A stretch of 64,000 nt of DNA from Modestobacter roseus. Its GTDB lineage: Bacteria; Actinomycetota; Actinomycetes; Mycobacteriales; Geodermatophilaceae. Below the pieces are notes generated by a model. It searched no databases and was not told the origin of the DNA. It saw only the letters and a program-made list of their open reading frames with translations. Of the stretch, positions 1-6,350 are shown piece by piece. Within the stretch, counting starts at the first letter, position 1, and every line of letters starts with the position of its first letter. Both the position numbers and the translations under genes were made by a program. The stretch lies in assembly GCF_007994135.1 (NCBI RefSeq), contig NZ_VLKF01000001.1, positions 3,100,001-3,164,000 of the forward strand, read 5' to 3'.

Positions 1-942
1 ACCGGGAGCGGCAAGGGCGTGCTGCTGTCCGCCGGCGCGCTGCGCGCCTCGGCCACCGCCACCCTGGACCGGCTGGGCGGCGCGGGGAGCTGGCTGCTGG
101 CGCTGCCGGTGTCCGCCGTCGGCGGGCTGCAGGTGCTGGTGCGCAGCGCGCTGGCCGACCGGGAGCCGGTGGTGCTCGGCCGCGGCGAGCCGCTGGCCGC
201 CGCCACGGCCCGGCTGCCGGCCGGTGACCGCCGGTACGTCTCGCTCGTCCCGACCCAGCTGCGCCGGTTCCTGGCCGAGGAGCCCGACGCGCTGGCGTCC
301 TTCGACGGCGTGCTCGTCGGCGGCGCGGCCAGCGACCCCGCGCTGCTCGCCGCGGCGCACGCCGCCGGGGTGCGCGTGCGCACCACCTACGGCATGAGCG
401 AGACCGCCGGCGGCTGCGTCTACGACGGGGTGCCGCTGGACGGCGTCTCGGTGCGGGTGGCCGACGGCGGGATCGAGCTGACCGGGCCGGTGCTCGCGCA
501 CGGCTACCGGCTCGACCCCGCCGCCACCGCCGAGGCGTTCGCGCCTGGTCCCGGCGGCGGGGTGTGGTTCCGCACCCGGGACGCCGGGTCGGTCGACGAC
601 GACGGCCGGCTGACCGTGCACGGCCGGCTGGACGACGTGGTGATCAGCGGCGGGGTGAACGTCTCCCCGCCGGCGGTCGAGGCGCGGCTGCGCGAGCACC
701 CGTCGGTCGCCGACGCCGTCGTCGCCGGGGTGCCCGATCCCGAGTGGGGTCAGCGCGTCGTCGCCGCCGTCGTCGCCGCCCCGGGCGCCGCCCCCCGGCT
801 GGCCGAGCTGCGGCCGTGGGTGGCCGAGCGGCTCGGCGCCGCCGCCGCGCCCAAGGCGCTGCGCCTGATCGACACCGTCCCGACCCTGCACACCGGCAAG
901 CCCGACCGGCGCGCCGTCCTCCACATCCTGGGAGACATCTAG
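1..942 (+). CDS. menE: o-succinylbenzoate-CoA ligase MenE, 5' truncated by window edge
   Basis: The frame is open from base 1 and ends at TAG 940-942, so the N-terminal part lies outside the window. The visible part starts inside the adenylate-forming signature (TGSGKGV, equivalent to the TSGSTGxPKGV loop). It continues with YGMSETAGGC, the hinge region GRLDDVVISGGVNVSP and a C-terminal GKPDRRAV with the catalytic lysine. This is the ANL superfamily layout of acyl-CoA ligases. MenE activates o-succinylbenzoate with ATP and CoA in menaquinone synthesis. The assignment rests on the directly following menA, whose GTG start overlaps the stop by one base. The short C-terminal domain fits MenE better than a general fatty acyl-CoA ligase. 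Confidence 0.88.
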   Translation, partial: TGSGKGVLLSAGALRASATATLDRLGGAGSWLLALPVSAVGGLQVLVRSALADREPVVLGRGEPLAAATARLPAGDRRYVSLVPTQLRRFLAEEPDALASFDGVLVGGAASDPALLAAAHAAGVRVRTTYGMSETAGGCVYDGVPLDGVSVRVADGGIELTGPVLAHGYRLDPAATAEAFAPGPGGGVWFRTRDAGSVDDDGRLTVHGRLDDVVISGGVNVSPPAVEARLREHPSVADAVVAGVPDPEWGQRVVAAVVAAPGAAPRLAELRPWVAERLGAAAAPKALRLIDTVPTLHTGKPDRRAVLHILGDI

Positions 943-1811
943 TGGCCACCCCTGCCCAGTGGCTGGCGGGTGCCCGCCCCCGCACCCTGCCCGCCGCCCT
1001 CGCGCCGGTGTTCGTCGGCTCCGGCGTCGCCGCCGCGCTCGACGGGTTCCGGCTCGCCCCCGCCCTGCTGGCGCTGCTCGTGGCGCTCGCCCTGCAGGTC
1101 GCGGTGAACTACGCCAACGACCACTCCGACGGCAAGCGCGGCACCGACGCCGACCGGGTGGGCCCGATGCGGTTGGTCGGCTCCGGCGCCGCCAGCGCCC
1201 GGCAGGTGCTGGTCGCGGCGATGCTCGCCTTCGCCGTGGCCGCGGTGGCCGGCCTGGCGCTGGCCGCACTGTCCAGCTGGTGGCTGGTCGCGGTCGGCGC
1301 GGTGAGCATCCTCGCCGCCTGGACCTACACCGGCGGCCCGATCCCCTACGGCTACCGGGCGCTGGGCGAGGTGTTCGTCTTCGTCTTCTTCGGGCTGGTC
1401 GCCGTCGTCGGGACGACGTTCGCCCAGACCGAGTCGCTGGACGGGCTGGCGTTCGCGGCCGCGGTGCCGATCGGGCTGTGCTCGGTGGCGCTGCTGGTGG
1501 TGAACAACCTGCGGGACGTGCACGGCGACGCCGCCGTCGGCAAGCGCACGCTGGCGGTGCTCCTCGGCGAGGGGCGCACCCGGCTGTTCTTCACCGGGCT
1601 GCTCGTGGTGGTCTTCGCCGCGATCGTGCTGATCGGCCTGGCCCGGCCGTGGGCGCTGTCGGGGCTGCTCGCCGCGCCGCTGGCCGTGCCACCGGTGCGC
1701 ACCGTGCTCGGCGGTGGCCGGGGCCCGGTCCTGATCGATGCGCTCAAGGGCACCGGTCAGCTGACCCTCGCCGTCGGCGTGCTGCTCGCCGTCGGCCTCG
1801 CCCTCAGCTGA
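942..1811 (+). CDS. menA: 1,4-dihydroxy-2-naphthoate polyprenyltransferase MenA
   Basis: A 289-residue integral membrane prenyltransferase of the UbiA superfamily. It attaches the polyprenyl chain to 1,4-dihydroxy-2-naphthoate to give demethylmenaquinone. The first aspartate-rich motif is visible as NYANDHSDGKRGTD near residue 50, in the MenA form NDxxDxxxGTD. The second polar motif NNLRDVHGDAAVGKRT lies near residue 190, and about eight to nine hydrophobic segments follow one another. The GTG start at 942 shares its first base with the menE stop, indicating translational coupling. The last codons and the TGA (1809-1811) lie inside a 24-bp repeat that recurs at 2187-2210. Confidence 0.95.
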   Translation: MATPAQWLAGARPRTLPAALAPVFVGSGVAAALDGFRLAPALLALLVALALQVAVNYANDHSDGKRGTDADRVGPMRLVGSGAASARQVLVAAMLAFAVAAVAGLALAALSSWWLVAVGAVSILAAWTYTGGPIPYGYRALGEVFVFVFFGLVAVVGTTFAQTESLDGLAFAAAVPIGLCSVALLVVNNLRDVHGDAAVGKRTLAVLLGEGRTRLFFTGLLVVVFAAIVLIGLARPWALSGLLAAPLAVPPVRTVLGGGRGPVLIDALKGTGQLTLAVGVLLAVGLALS

Positions 1812-2210
1812 CAGGGCCCTCAGCTGAGTTCGGCAGCAAGGTGTGGCAGATGTGCGTGAGTCCCGCTGTCGTTCACTAGTCACGCGGCGTGGACGGCGGC
1901 CCGCAGGAGGAGCAGTTCGCCAGGGGGTACGGCCGCACAGCCAGGCCGTCCGCGAACGGCGGGCCCGAGCAATGTGCGGTCATGGCCGGTTCTGGACGCG
2001 GAAGCCGCCACGAACGCACATCACCGAGCCGTTGAACCGCCGAGAACCACAAGGAGGCTGCTTCTGGGCCTGGGTGGTCCATCGTCTCCGCTGTGCGTGC
2101 CGACCGCGGTCGGCCGCGCCCGGTTCTCTCACGGAACGTAGCCGGACTTGCGCACAGAACAACACACCCTGCTGCCGAACTCGCCGTCAGCTGACGGGGC
2201 CCTCAGCTGA
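1804..2210. mobile_element. MITE-like insertion flanked by a 24-bp duplication
   Basis: The stretch between menA and the convergent DUF4229 gene has no credible gene. It is bounded by two nearly identical 24-bp copies (1804-1827 and 2187-2210, 23 of 24 matching) in direct orientation. Each copy is itself almost palindromic (TCAGCTGA, GGGCCC, TCAGCTGA). Just inside, 1826-1845 and the complement of 2163-2182 form a 20-bp terminal inverted repeat with one mismatch, and weaker similarity continues about 20 bases further inward. Both neighbouring stop codons lie inside the 24-bp copies. This is what insertion of a roughly 360-bp non-autonomous element into a shared terminator with target duplication would leave. 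No transposase is encoded, and the element family is unknown. Confidence 0.6.
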
Positions 2211-2529
2211 CGGCGTCGTCCTCGCCGCGCAGCTGGGCCCGGATCTGCTGCTTGCGCACGCTGCGCCCCGCGATCGCCTCGGTGAGCCGGTCGCGCATCG
2301 GGCGCAGCGCCAGGTAGGCCACCGGCATGCCCAGCAGCAGCCCGATCAGCAGCGCCGGGAAGCCGGGCAGCCCCAGCACCCAGATCAGCGCGATCAGGCC
2401 GGCCACGATCGCCAGCCGGGCCGCGGTGTAGGCCAGCAGCCACGGCACCAGCGGCGGCGGCTCCGCTGGTCCACCGGTCGGTCCGACCGGCCCCACGGGG
2501 GTCACCGGTGCCTGCGCGTCGTCAGCCAC
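2203..2529 (-). CDS. DUF4229 family small membrane protein
   Basis: A protein of about 108 residues with a proline/glycine-rich N-terminus. Two adjacent hydrophobic segments follow (around LAIVAGLIALIWVLG and LLIGLLLGMPVAYLAL), then a charged tail (RPMRDRLTEAI...RKQQIRAQLRGEDD). This arrangement is that of the actinobacterial DUF4229 family, whose function is unknown. I chose the GTG at 2529 because a strong ribosome-binding sequence GGGAGGG precedes it by six bases. A longer reading frame exists upstream but would run far into the Lrp gene. The first 8 bases overlap the 3' end of the Lrp-type gene, suggesting co-transcription. The stop lies in the 24-bp repeat described for 1804-2210. Confidence 0.8.
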   Translation of the reverse strand: MADDAQAPVTPVGPVGPTGGPAEPPPLVPWLLAYTAARLAIVAGLIALIWVLGLPGFPALLIGLLLGMPVAYLALRPMRDRLTEAIAGRSVRKQQIRAQLRGEDDAVS

Positions 2530-2989
2530 GACGTCCCTCCCACTTCGTTGAAAGAACCACCGTGGTCCGGGTGCGGGCCACGCCCCGGATCCGGTTGATG
2601 GCACTGATGGTGTCCTCCAGCGCCGGGATGTCGGGCACCCGCACCTTGAGCACGTAGCCCTCGCTGCCGGCCACCCGCCAGCAGTCCTCGACCGGGGTGA
2701 GCGCGGCGAGCGCCTCCTCCAGACCGACGTCGTCCACCTGGTCGCTCTCGATCACGCCCACCAGCGCGGTGACGCCCAGGCCCACCGCGGCCGGGTCGAC
2801 CTCCGCGCGGTACCCGGTGATCACCCCGGCGGCCTCCAGCTTGCCCACCCGTTCGTGCACGGAGGGCGCCGAGAGGCCCACCTGCCGGGCGAGCTCGGCG
2901 TAGCTGGCCCGCCCGTTCGCCCCCAGCAGCGCGATCAGCTGCTCGTCCACCGCGTCGATGACGCCCCTCCGGTCCTGCCGTGGTCGCAC
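2522..2989 (-). CDS. Lrp/AsnC family transcriptional regulator
   Basis: An N-terminal winged HTH (DAVDEQLIALLGANGRASYAELARQVGLSAPSVHERV) and a C-terminal RAM/AsnC ligand-binding domain with the G-x-x-D region (CWRVAGSEGYVLKVRV) give the usual Lrp size of about 155 residues. Lrp proteins sense amino acids or small metabolites and form octamers. I place the start at GTG 2989; an in-frame GTG at 3052 would add 21 residues without family support. The gene overlaps the downstream DUF4229 gene by 8 bases. The regulated genes cannot be read from this window. Confidence 0.88.
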   Translation of the reverse strand: MRPRQDRRGVIDAVDEQLIALLGANGRASYAELARQVGLSAPSVHERVGKLEAAGVITGYRAEVDPAAVGLGVTALVGVIESDQVDDVGLEEALAALTPVEDCWRVAGSEGYVLKVRVPDIPALEDTISAINRIRGVARTRTTVVLSTKWEGRRG

Positions 2990-3107
2990 CCGGCGTCCCT
3001 GTGGAGCCGCTGTGCCCGGTCTGTGCGCCTCGCACGCTCCGCGCGAGATCACCGGGTCCCAGTATCGGCGCGGTCGTACATTGGGTGCTGACGAGGGGGG
3101 TGGACCG

Positions 3108-3350
3108 ATGGTCTTCCTGGTGATGCTGGTGATCGCTGCCGCGGTGGTCGTGCTCGTGATGCGGGCTGCCGCGGCTCAGGGCGGGGGTCCCGGCGGCTCG
3201 GGTGGGATCGGGCGGCCCGGTGCCGGACCCCGGCCGCCACGGCCGCCGAAGGCCCAGCGCCCGACCCGGCCGGTGGCGCCCGACGACGACCCGGAGTTCC
3301 TCCGGGAGCTCGAGCGCCGGGCCAAGCGGGACGACGGCAGCCTGAGCTGA
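3108..3350 (+). CDS. Small single-span membrane protein, unknown function
   Basis: An 80-residue protein whose first 22 residues are a hydrophobic segment (MVFLVMLVIAAAVVVLVM). A Gly/Pro/Arg-rich linker and an acidic then basic C-terminus (DDDPEFLRELERRAKRDDGS) follow. The ATG at 3108 has a G-rich ribosome-binding site (GAGGGGGG) at good distance. It is divergent from the Lrp gene and ends just before a long perfect hairpin (3365-3410). I do not recognise a family. The single N-terminal span with a charged cytoplasmic tail suggests a small membrane-anchored protein. Confidence 0.65.
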   Translation: MVFLVMLVIAAAVVVLVMRAAAAQGGGPGGSGGIGRPGAGPRPPRPPKAQRPTRPVAPDDDPEFLRELERRAKRDDGSLS

Positions 3351-3364
3351 ACCGCCGCCCGCAG

Positions 3365-3410
3365 ACGACGCGAGCCGTCAGCCTCCCCGGAGGCTGACGG
3401 CTCGCGTCGT
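3365..3410. terminator. Bidirectional terminator hairpin
   Basis: A perfect inverted repeat with 22-bp arms (ACGACGCGAGCCGTCAGCCT... and its complement) and a 2-base centre. It lies 14 bases after the stop of the gene ending at 3350 and 63 bases before the end of the convergent gene at 3474, so it can terminate transcription from both sides. No T tract follows, as usual in high-GC actinobacteria. Confidence 0.85.
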
Positions 3411-3473
3411 TCCCGGCCCCGCTGCCGGGTCCCACCGCGAGCCAGCGAGTGGTGGGGGCAGCGGGGTCCTTGT

Positions 3474-3749
3474 TCAGGCGGCGGTGCGAGAGCCGCCGAA
3501 GAGCCGGCGCCAGCCGGTCCGGCGCGGGGTGGCGTGCTCCTCCGCCGGGACCTCAGCACGGTCGGTGCCGCCGTCGACGTCCAGGTCGCCGGGCCAGCCG
3601 AGGCCGGTGCCGTCGGCCGGGTCGCCCGGCCAGCCGAGCCCACCGGAGCCGGCGGCGTGCCGGGGGCCGGACGGCTCGGGCCGCTGCTGCAGCGCCGCGG
3701 CGACGAGCGGGTGCACGGACGCGCCCTCAGCCGCCAGGTGCCTACCCAC
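3474..3749 (-). CDS. Hypothetical protein with GLGWPGD repeats
   Basis: A protein of about 91 residues. Its N-terminus (GRHLAAEGASVHPLVAAALQQRPEP) is followed by two copies of a GLGWPGD motif and a basic C-terminus (TPRRTGWRRLFGGSRTAA). The start was set at GTG 3749, which has GGAG six bases upstream; GTG 3761 is an in-frame alternative. Codon composition and the repeated motif favour a real gene. I do not know the family and see no catalytic signature. It lies downstream of the region upstream of the cytochrome c genes, on the same strand. Confidence 0.55.
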   Translation of the reverse strand: MGRHLAAEGASVHPLVAAALQQRPEPSGPRHAAGSGGLGWPGDPADGTGLGWPGDLDVDGGTDRAEVPAEEHATPRRTGWRRLFGGSRTAA

Positions 3750-3870
3750 AGTGAACTCCACCGGGTTCAGTCATGCGCCGAGGATGGCACGAACGCGCAC
3801 CTGGCCGCGAGTCGCCACCGACCCACCCGGTGTGCCATTCACCCGATCGTGACCCTGGGTGACCGGAGGG

Positions 3871-4839
3871 TCAGTTGACGCCGCCGTAGCTGTGCAGCCC
3901 GGTGGACACCAGGTTGACGAACAGCAGGTTGAAGATCATCACGACCAGGCCGACGATGTTGATCCAGGCGGCGGGGCGACCGCGCCAGCCGGACGTCGTC
4001 CGGGCGTGCAGGTAGGCGGCGTAGACCACCCAGGCGATGAACGCCCAGGTCTCCTTGGGGTCCCAGCCCCAGAAGCGGCCCCAGGCGCTCTCCGCCCAGA
4101 TCGCACCGGCGATGACCGCGAACGTCCAGATCGGGAAGCCGAAGACGGCCGTGCGGTGCGCGGTGCGGTCGAGCGCCGCCGCCGTGGGCAGCCGGTCCAG
4201 CAGGGACGGCGCCAGGACCTCCCCCGCCGCCGCGCGGGACTCGCGGCGACTGCGGACCAGGTACAGGATGCTGGCGATCCCGCTGACGAAGAAGATGCCG
4301 AAGCCCAGCGTCGCGGTGCTCACGTGCACCGCCAGCCAGCTGGAGCGCAGCGCGGCCACCAGCGGACCGGTCTCCACGTAGAGGAACAGCCCGATCAGCA
4401 CCAGCGAGAGGACGACCGGGGCCAGCACGAAGACGCCGATGTGCCGCAGGGACGGCGTGCGCACGGCCAGCACCGCGTAGGCGATGACCGCCACGAGCAC
4501 CACCGCGGTGGAGAACTCGTACATGTTGCCCCAGGGCAGCCGGTCGGCGGCCATCCCCCGGGTGACCAGCACCCCGGCGTGGGTCAACGCGCCGGCGACG
4601 GTGAGGACCATCCCGGCCAGGCCCAGCCGGCGGGCCCGGCCGGTCTCCGGCGCGTCGTCCGCACCGGCCGGGGTGCCGATGGGCTCGGCCGGTGCGTGGC
4701 CGGCCGCGACGAGCGCACGGGCACGGGCGGGCCGGCCGAAGGCCAGCTCGGCGCAGAACGCCACCACGGCGAGCGAGTACAGGCCCACGGTGACGGAGAA
4801 GAGCGTGTCGGACAGCGCGGCGAGCGACTCGTCGATCAC
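3871..4839 (-). CDS. ccsB: Cytochrome c biogenesis protein CcsB/CcsA (ResC), haem handling
   Basis: A 322-residue polytopic membrane protein with the tryptophan-rich signature WGRFWGWDPKETWAFIAW near residue 255. This is the hallmark of CcsA/ResC proteins, which present haem outside the membrane for attachment to apocytochrome c in system II. Around eight membrane spans are visible, and the N-terminal cytoplasmic loop is long and Ala/Pro-rich. The GTG start at 4839 overlaps the end of resB (4836), so ResB and CcsB, which form one complex, are translationally coupled. Downstream of ccdA and tlpA on the same strand, it completes a standard cytochrome c maturation operon. Confidence 0.95.
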   Translation of the reverse strand: MIDESLAALSDTLFSVTVGLYSLAVVAFCAELAFGRPARARALVAAGHAPAEPIGTPAGADDAPETGRARRLGLAGMVLTVAGALTHAGVLVTRGMAADRLPWGNMYEFSTAVVLVAVIAYAVLAVRTPSLRHIGVFVLAPVVLSLVLIGLFLYVETGPLVAALRSSWLAVHVSTATLGFGIFFVSGIASILYLVRSRRESRAAAGEVLAPSLLDRLPTAAALDRTAHRTAVFGFPIWTFAVIAGAIWAESAWGRFWGWDPKETWAFIAWVVYAAYLHARTTSGWRGRPAAWINIVGLVVMIFNLLFVNLVSTGLHSYGGVN

Positions 4840-6350
4840 GACGGCGGTGCCTCTCTCTCGGGTGACGGGGGCGGTGCCGGTGCGGTCGCGGCCAGCGCGC
4901 GCGTGACGTCGTCGGTCAGCTCGGCGAACCGGGGGCCGGTGTCGGCGCTGCCCCGCGTCAGCGAGCCGATCGACAGCACCGTACCCCCGCCGTCGGCCGC
5001 CGGGCCGACCCGGGCGAAGACCCGCTCGCGGCGCACCAGCAGCATGCCGAGCAGCCCGACGAGGACCGCGATCGCGGCGCCGAGCACCCAGATCTGGCCG
5101 GGGTCGTGGGACAGCTGCAGGGCGGCGAACTGCCGGTAGCTGCTGAAGGTGACCACGGTGCCGTCCGGCAGCGTCGTCGACTCCCCGACCGCCAGGTTGG
5201 CCCGGCCGACCTCGGTGAGCCGGTCCTGGTCGATCAGCCGCTGGTCGAGCGTGTAGACCGACTGCGGCAGCCCCGAGTCCAGCCCCAGGTAACCGGAGTA
5301 GACGAAGACCGCGACCTGCGGGTCGAGCGGGCGCGGGTCGGCCGAGGAGAGGATGCCGCCCTGCACGACACCGGTGGGGGCGAAGAAGCCCTGGATCGCC
5401 AGCTGCTCGGTGATGCCGGCCCCGAGGTCGGGGAGCTTGAGCACGCCCTCGCTGCCCATGACGGCCTGATCGGTGGGGAGGAACGGAGCGCAGGCGTCGG
5501 TGATCGGCTCGGCGCCGGGCACCGCCACGGTGAAGCACGGGCTGTAGCCGTGGCCGGTCACGTACACCCGGTCGCCGTCGGTGCGCAGCGGGTCGTTGAC
5601 CCCGATCGTCGTCTCCTGGTCGGCACCCCCGCCGGCCGGGCCGTAGGTGATGTCGGCGGTGTAGGAGGCCGCAGTGCCGTTCTCCTCGTAGGTGGCGGAG
5701 AAGTCGGCCAGGTCCACGCAGAGGTCCGACATCTCGCCGTTGTCGACCAGCGGGCCGGCCGAGTAGGTGTCGTACTGCTGGACGGTGTTGCAGAACCCGG
5801 AGCCCTCGGTGACCAGGATGCTGCCCTCGTAGCCCCACAGCTTCCCGCCGGCCAGGCCGAGCAGCAGCGCCAGCAGGGAGAGGTGGAACAGCACGTTGCC
5901 GGTCTCGCGCAGGTACCCCTTCTCCGCCGACAGCTCCGGACCGGCCTTCCCGTCGCGGCGGACCACCCGGAACCGGCGGACCCGCAGCTCCTCCTCCACC
6001 ACGTCCAGCGCCGCGGGTGCGGCCAGCGGGGTGGGCAGCGTGGCCGACTCCGGCAGCCGGTGCAGGTGCCGGGGTGCCGTGGGCGGCGGGGTGAACAGCG
6101 TGCGGCCGTGCTCGACCGCCCGCGGGAACACGCAGCCGATCAGCGAGATGAACAGCAGCAGGTAGATCGCGGCGAACCACGGCGAGCTGAACACGTCGAA
6201 CAGGAACAGCCGGTCCAGCCACGGCGCGAGGGTCGGGTGGTCGACGAAGTACTGGTTGACGTTGGTCTGCGACAGCGACCGCTGCGGCAGCAACGACCCG
6301 GGGATGGCGGCCAGGGCGAGCAGGAACAGCAGGATCAGCGCGGTGCGCAT
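4836..6350 (-). CDS. resB: Cytochrome c biogenesis protein ResB (Ccs1), apparent 5' frame break
   Basis: The annotated frame from ATG 6350 gives 504 residues beginning MRTALILLFLLALAAIPGSL, with further spans, a large extracytoplasmic region and a final span before the C-terminal tail. ResB holds apocytochrome c for haem ligation with CcsB. ResB homologues normally begin with a basic leader before this helix. Here the in-frame codons upstream do encode RRLANRLLRWWRQLTA, but no ATG, GTG or TTG opens that frame. A GTG at 6461-6463, overlapping the ccdA stop in the same GTGA manner as other operon genes, reads VTTTAQPRAAA and is out of frame by one base. A single missing base near 6380-6440 would restore a full-length protein. 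Confidence 0.9.
   Translation of the reverse strand: MRTALILLFLLALAAIPGSLLPQRSLSQTNVNQYFVDHPTLAPWLDRLFLFDVFSSPWFAAIYLLLFISLIGCVFPRAVEHGRTLFTPPPTAPRHLHRLPESATLPTPLAAPAALDVVEEELRVRRFRVVRRDGKAGPELSAEKGYLRETGNVLFHLSLLALLLGLAGGKLWGYEGSILVTEGSGFCNTVQQYDTYSAGPLVDNGEMSDLCVDLADFSATYEENGTAASYTADITYGPAGGGADQETTIGVNDPLRTDGDRVYVTGHGYSPCFTVAVPGAEPITDACAPFLPTDQAVMGSEGVLKLPDLGAGITEQLAIQGFFAPTGVVQGGILSSADPRPLDPQVAVFVYSGYLGLDSGLPQSVYTLDQRLIDQDRLTEVGRANLAVGESTTLPDGTVVTFSSYRQFAALQLSHDPGQIWVLGAAIAVLVGLLGMLLVRRERVFARVGPAADGGGTVLSIGSLTRGSADTGPRFAELTDDVTRALAATAPAPPPSPEREAPPS

Follow-up and report, generated by a model that had tools for sequence, protein, structure and literature searches.

A short inverted-repeat element between two convergent genes of Modestobacter roseus is probably a MITE of a transposon group that inserts at TCA-N8-TGA

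The 357 bp from position 1826 to position 2182 of the window (the whole stretch of 64,000 nucleotides of Modestobacter roseus DNA analysed here) are very probably a non-autonomous MITE, most likely moved in trans by the transposase of larger two-gene elements that insert at the target TCA-N8-TGA. The insert lies between a UbiA-family gene and a convergent DUF4229 gene. The first-pass annotation, made from the letters alone, had proposed a MITE-like insertion at this place, and this proposal is now backed by a second copy, by empty sites in relatives and by a family of elements with the same ends and target. The element and its neighbours are the following.

Positions 1826 to 2182, no strand: MITE-like element, non-coding (second copy, not found at this junction in 18 relatives, no Rfam family at gathering score).
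Positions 1826 to 1845, plus strand: left terminal inverted repeat, core GAGTTCGGCAGCAAGGTGTG; a weaker repeat runs to about 1873 by eye.
Positions 2163 to 2182, minus strand: right terminal inverted repeat with the core GAGTTCGGCAGCAGGGTGTG, read on that strand; a weaker repeat runs from about 2134 by eye.
Positions 1972 to 2021, no strand: imperfect hairpin inside the element, arms 1972 to 1992 and 2001 to 2021.
Positions 942 to 1811, plus strand: UbiA prenyltransferase family gene upstream of the insert (menA in the first-pass annotation), assigned by Pfam and intact to its TGA.
Positions 2203 to 2604, minus strand: convergent DUF4229 gene, assigned by Pfam and intact to its stop; its start codon is uncertain.

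The 20-bp inverted repeat with one mismatch was found as it had been described, positions 1826-1845 pairing with the complement of 2163-2182 at 19 of 20 bases. When up to 3 mismatches are allowed, the window has two occurrences of this terminal 20-mer, against 0.01 expected from 100 dinucleotide shuffles. A second copy of the element is present in the same genome (G000:C1:3421413-3421785), 95% identical over 373 bases, where it adjoins the stop codon of glyA, the serine hydroxymethyltransferase gene, and is flanked by a 10/10 duplication. Moreover, the junction was compared in 22 other Modestobacter genomes, 18 of which have both flanking genes, and the element was found at the menA/DUF4229 junction in none of these 18 relatives; the aligned genes are spaced by -5 to 97 bases in 16 of them. 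In the remaining four genomes, which are 67-80% complete, no menA was found among the matches listed. Two junctions hold longer sequence of another kind: 820 bases in G005 (L235), read as a LysE-like transporter gene, and 906 bases in G017 (L229) with no match to the element. A search of plasmids and phages for the window element gave nothing. Thus, the insert looks mobile, as far as can be judged from these comparisons. It had been stated in advance that the same bases in all close relatives, with no copies elsewhere, would speak against an insertion; the outcome was the reverse, with 18 relatives free of the element and a further copy by glyA. The other expectation, of relatives keeping one 24-bp copy and no insert, came out only in part: the insert was not found at the 18 junctions, and G006 has an array of three 16-bp units there.

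With inverted repeats matching at 19/20, a duplication matching at 9/10, a length of 357 bp without a transposase gene, two copies in the genome and empty sites in relatives, the element has both the structure and the polymorphic presence of a MITE. No supported gene was found between the flanking genes when the open reading frames of the insert were inspected, and a protein-coding insert is unlikely because the window copy and the second copy differ by a 1-base indel. An Rfam scan of the window element returned no family at gathering score and one weak sub-threshold match (E 0.32); a conserved RNA or gene inside the insert, which the first-pass annotation had considered damaging to its reading, did not appear in these searches. 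Short matches to the interior in other Modestobacter look unrelated by eye, except for a hairpin in G016. This is a free-standing long hairpin after a gene (L005, about 1501-1561) that resembles the window hairpin at 1972-2021.

It might be argued that the element contains a conserved regulatory RNA or a terminator kept for its function at gene ends. Indeed, the whole element folds as DNA with a z of -4.9, and the internal hairpin and its counterpart after a gene in G016 would fit such a role. However, part of the folding is due to the inverted repeats, and folding of this origin is common for MITEs. The Rfam result, the lack of any terminator-like site in a scan of 1700-2300 and the 18 relatives in which the element was not found at the junction also argue against a conserved function, which we consider most improbable. 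The same scan gave no support to the earlier idea that the MITE had inserted into a terminator; what the insertion sites have in common is TCA-N8-TGA, usually at a stop codon.

The direct repeat around the insert deserves separate consideration. Two 24-bp copies, at 1804-1827 and 2187-2210, match at 23/24 as claimed, and each contains the stop codon of one flanking gene (1809-1811 for the UbiA-family gene, 2203-2205 for the DUF4229 gene). They had been interpreted as a 24-bp target duplication, with only 8 bases between the two stops before insertion. Judged from the related elements and from G006, the most plausible reading of this apparent duplication is a 10-bp duplication within a three-unit tandem array of 16 bp, with the following parts.

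Positions 1816 to 1825, plus strand: left target duplication GCCCTCAGCT, matching the right copy at 9/10, placed by the family rule.
Positions 2183 to 2192, plus strand: right target duplication GCCGTCAGCT, matching the left copy at 9/10, placed by the family rule.
Positions 1803 to 1818, plus strand: unit 1 of a tandem array of 16-bp units, a source of the apparent 24-bp repeat.
Positions 2202 to 2217, plus strand: unit 3 of the array; the element interrupts unit 2, whose two parts are 1819-1825 and 2193-2201.

When the element and one 10-bp copy are taken out of the window, three 16-bp units remain, of which units 1 and 2 differ at one base and unit 3 deviates in its last bases. In this model, the 24-bp repeat would pair unit 1 and part of unit 2 with unit 2 and part of unit 3, and the two stops would have been separated by 24 bases, not 8. 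Three units, CTCAGCTGAGGCCGCG, are also present in G006, where the menA/DUF4229 junction lacks the element. If the MITE had truly duplicated 24 bp of its target, the 23/24 direct repeat would be accounted for and, at this locus alone, taking out 24 bp likewise gives a tidy two-unit junction. Nevertheless, the duplication is 10 bp long in relatives that have these ends, the match between the two sides stops at exactly 10 in L161-L163, and G006 has its comparable array without any element, so that a 24-bp duplication seems highly improbable. In L161-L163 the ends also differ from the flanks, so that the terminal GA and TC are part of the element rather than of the duplication. With a 10-bp duplication, the window target is an imperfect one, GGG-N8-TGA, whose left half is GGG in place of TCA.

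The wider family was searched for in 112 genomes of the bacterial family with a 20-bp end and up to 3 mismatches; pairs of ends were taken from among the matches listed, and the set is a sample. We collected 25 elements that either have matching ends or share transposase and layout; they come from Geodermatophilaceae and, in part, from other Actinomycetes, and among the named loci with end pairs are Geodermatophilus, Blastococcus, Nocardioides and an Actinomycetales MAG. The stretches read out between matching ends measure 226 to 4375 bp. For the exact terminal 18-mer, 21 occurrences were counted across 10 of 397 genomes of the order, against 2 for the reversed control, and four stretches of viral contigs contain one exact match each to the terminal repeat. 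The duplication matches at 9 or 10 of 10 positions in all 14 elements read without a duplication filter (in L163 with the left end shifted by one base). These 14 provide the unbiased figure, as the elements found later were prefiltered for a duplication of at least 7/10 or nearly perfect ends, and L250 for an exact duplication. Over the 25 elements the mean match is 9.36/10, compared with 4.86 for mismatched pairs; among the latter at least 7 bases match in 17% and at least 9 in 0.5%, chance matches that arise because the target itself is conserved.

Several candidates were dropped from the 25: L097, which has 3 mismatches in one end and was thought to be due to chance; L251, which has another target; pairs with a weak second end (L170 1534-3039 and extra pairs of L208, L100 and L056); and terminal-repeat matches that lacked a partner or a duplication (L166/L212, L210, L254 and most of 119 stretches). 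L015, L026, L033, L034, L045, L049, L064, L093, L099 and L148 were dropped as repeats of one element.

The target rule emerges from the bases around the duplication. Outside it, the left flank is TC and the right flank GA, each in 23/25 elements, with P about 5e-26 for each if the elements were independent, values that are rough because the elements share ancestry. The left copy of the duplication begins with A in 22/25 and ends with T in 23/25, and these bases together with the flanks give TCA-N8-TGA. At the level of sequence, TGA is restored at each junction by the terminal GA and TC of the element. In 20/25 elements, a frame with a coding-like GC pattern is closed by a stop that spans at least one junction, against 9/27 background TCA-N8-TGA sites (Fisher P 0.0009, rough for the same reason of shared ancestry). 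An earlier gene-end count of 18/23 became 20/25 when L250 and the G066 element were added, and the background, at first 11/33, became 9/27 when six sites (two of them positive) that were themselves element targets were removed. The stop is present at one junction only in 12/25 elements; in 10 of these 12 the stop side has a gene-like frame, in the window and in L205 neither side has one, and in L172 and L207, which are among the ten, a second frame scores on the non-stop side too. The window copy is one of the 5/25 elements without a gene ending at the junction. The excess at stop codons would fit aim or selection alike.

Location at gene 3' ends, restored gene ends and varied cargo might also evoke a site-specific cassette, integrated by a tyrosine or serine recombinase, whose direct repeats would be attL and attR. 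Against such a cassette stand the terminal inverted repeats at both ends and an N8 that mostly differs from site to site. No recombinase was found among the element proteins scanned, and the two-gene elements hold instead an IS256-like transposase and an exonuclease. An origin of this kind is scarcely credible to us.

The larger members point to the possible source of transposition activity. L164 (4375 bp) and L250 (4581 bp) have both ends and the same target, and they enclose two genes, the first for a transposase-like protein and the next for a DEDDh exonuclease. The ends of L250 were located without using the known end sequence, by a 20/20 inverted repeat, a 10/10 duplication and TCA-N8-TGA. 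A third transposase and exonuclease pair, in G066, has its left end and right end on different contigs, with 10/10 duplications. These ends, at L203 2736 (G066:C313) and L204 3886 (G066:C246), form an inverted repeat of 35 bp in which a single base is mismatched; should the two contigs be adjacent, the element would be about 28 kb long and include a gene read as NRPS-like (L255 8277-13079, minus strand). L251 (about 1087-6148) is a divergent fourth member with transposase and exonuclease, a long inverted repeat that spans about 50 bp by eye and a likely GGTGCGACGC duplication, likewise by eye without the TCA-N8-TGA target.

An RNase_T exonuclease domain was found in all four members, with E from 4.5e-13 to 2.1e-19. 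The four transposases share invariant D357, D436, H462 and E563, a pattern that we take to be the DDE triad with a histidine after the second aspartate, as in the IS256/Mutator superfamily. The L251 transposase matches the IS1249 model at E 1.8e-9 and the IS256 model at 2.5e-5, and that of L250 matches the IS1249 model at E 0.012, all below the curated cut-offs; neither model matched the L203 and L164 transposases. In hhalign comparisons, a profile of the four sequences matched IS256 transposases at 86% (E 4.7e-6) and a three-sequence profile without L251 at 42% (E 2.6e-4), against 0.1% for control comparisons of the three-sequence profile. These profile similarities suggest that the transposase of the larger members is distantly related to IS256/IS1249. 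Relatives of this transposase were found only in G044, G066, G049 and G050 (2/15, 2/35 and 1/26 genomes, the last being G044 again). None was found in the 23 Modestobacter genomes including that of the window, of which five are 67-80% complete; the L164 transposase had no match in plasmids, and relatives of the transposase and of the TnpB-like proteins described below were not confirmed in viral contigs.

The outermost 21 bases of the right end of the G066 two-gene element are identical to those of the left end of the window element. We infer trans mobilisation, the cutting steps and any part that the exonuclease may have in transposition, whereas the element ends, second copy, empty sites, 10-bp duplication, target rule, rebuilt stops and two-gene elements were observed. 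The transposase of this distant IS256/IS1249-type family, supplied by two-gene elements in related genera, would recognise the MITE ends in trans, make a 10-bp staggered cut across the palindromic TCA-N8-TGA and insert the element, whose terminal GA and TC would complete TGA on both sides; a gene targeted at its stop codon would thereby keep a stop. The window element would have landed in the second 16-bp unit between the two convergent genes, leaving both intact. As no relative of the transposase was found in 23 Modestobacter genomes, the helper would be elsewhere, lost or different.

Several observations count against this model, namely the imperfect GGG-N8-TGA target, the 9/10 duplication and the absence of a gene ending at the window junctions, together with L251 lacking the target, the IS256 link staying below curated cut-offs and a differing inner terminal repeat. 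Indeed, the inner repeat of the window element, TGTGCGTGAGTCC, differs from those of the two-gene elements and is closer to those of the members bearing TnpB-like and maleylpyruvate-isomerase-like genes. Instead, Modestobacter could have an unseen transposase of unrelated type that moves a MITE with these ends, as the differing inner repeat and the missing transposase relatives in the 23 genomes might suggest. The 21 identical outer bases and the shared target rule argue otherwise, and we regard an unrelated enzyme as unlikely in comparison with mobilisation by the two-gene elements.

The same ends also enclose other genes. L161, L162 and L163 carry a TnpB-like gene matching NF040570 at E 5.6e-6 to 3.5e-8, in each case below the curated cut-off. 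The TnpB-like protein has an invariant histidine (H466) in 7/7 aligned relatives, at what is presumably the site of the RuvC-III motif. The flanking gene-like frame lies on the same side in all three elements and is closed by a rebuilt TAG. Among 27 plasmid records of TnpB relatives, the 5 inspected showed no clear matching ends; one plasmid relative, L197, shows an inverted repeat matching at 17/20 but no good duplication. A maleylpyruvate-isomerase-like gene is present in L208 (1266-2189) and L209 (3408-4309), whose elements are 89% identical and lie in opposite orientation in two Geodermatophilaceae genomes. L211 (1347-4261) has a complete PAS-GGDEF-EAL gene between the same ends in G120, which is from another family of the order, and L165 contains small ORFs of no known family.

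In comparison with described systems, the transposases resemble the IS256 family and the IS1249 group (Mutator superfamily) in profile similarity around the second aspartate and in the residues D, D, H and E. IS256 and IS1249 are single-gene elements with 8-9 bp duplications. The present family differs by a 10-bp duplication, a second gene for a DEDDh exonuclease, a size of 4.4-4.6 kb in two complete members and the TCA-N8-TGA target with rebuilding of the stop. The TnpB-like gene of L161-L163 recalls TnpB-bearing IS200/IS605 elements, from which these three differ by their terminal inverted repeats and 10-bp duplications. Like YPAL/RU-2 and other bacterial MITEs, the window element is short and non-coding and its target is duplicated. 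YPAL/RU-2 targets span or adjoin dyad symmetry, but its inverted repeats are internal and its duplications measure 3-26 bp, and the accessible part of the report contains no stop-codon rule (PMC2229807). Palindromic targets are also described for IS1272 and the IS1182 family, where, in the portion of the source at hand, IS1272 replaces its inverted-repeat target (PMC5678879), whereas the present family duplicates and keeps its own. Among titles and abstract openings, a sample that covers few subscription journals, no published stop-codon-targeting transposon with an exonuclease gene was recognised.

These elements may represent a previously undescribed group of actinobacterial transposons that aims at stop codons, combining a distant IS256-type transposase with its own DEDDh exonuclease and stop-rebuilding ends, and mobilising MITEs and cargo; the evidence leaves this broader proposal evenly balanced. 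An orphan MITE would then be linked to a probable helper, which has an exonuclease as its second enzyme. By aiming at a stop codon and bringing the missing bases, a transposon could spread in a simple way and leave genes unbroken. If this is true, insertion would be nearly harmless, and the same ends would mobilise both MITEs and cargo such as the TnpB-like, GGDEF-EAL and maleylpyruvate-isomerase-like genes. The rule of TCA-N8-TGA with a 10-bp duplication could be used to find such elements and their cargo in other Actinomycetes.

Lastly, L253 1628-2679 (G049:C82) is a further element outside the set of 25; it measures about 1.05 kb, its ends match and its 10-bp duplication agrees at 9/10.
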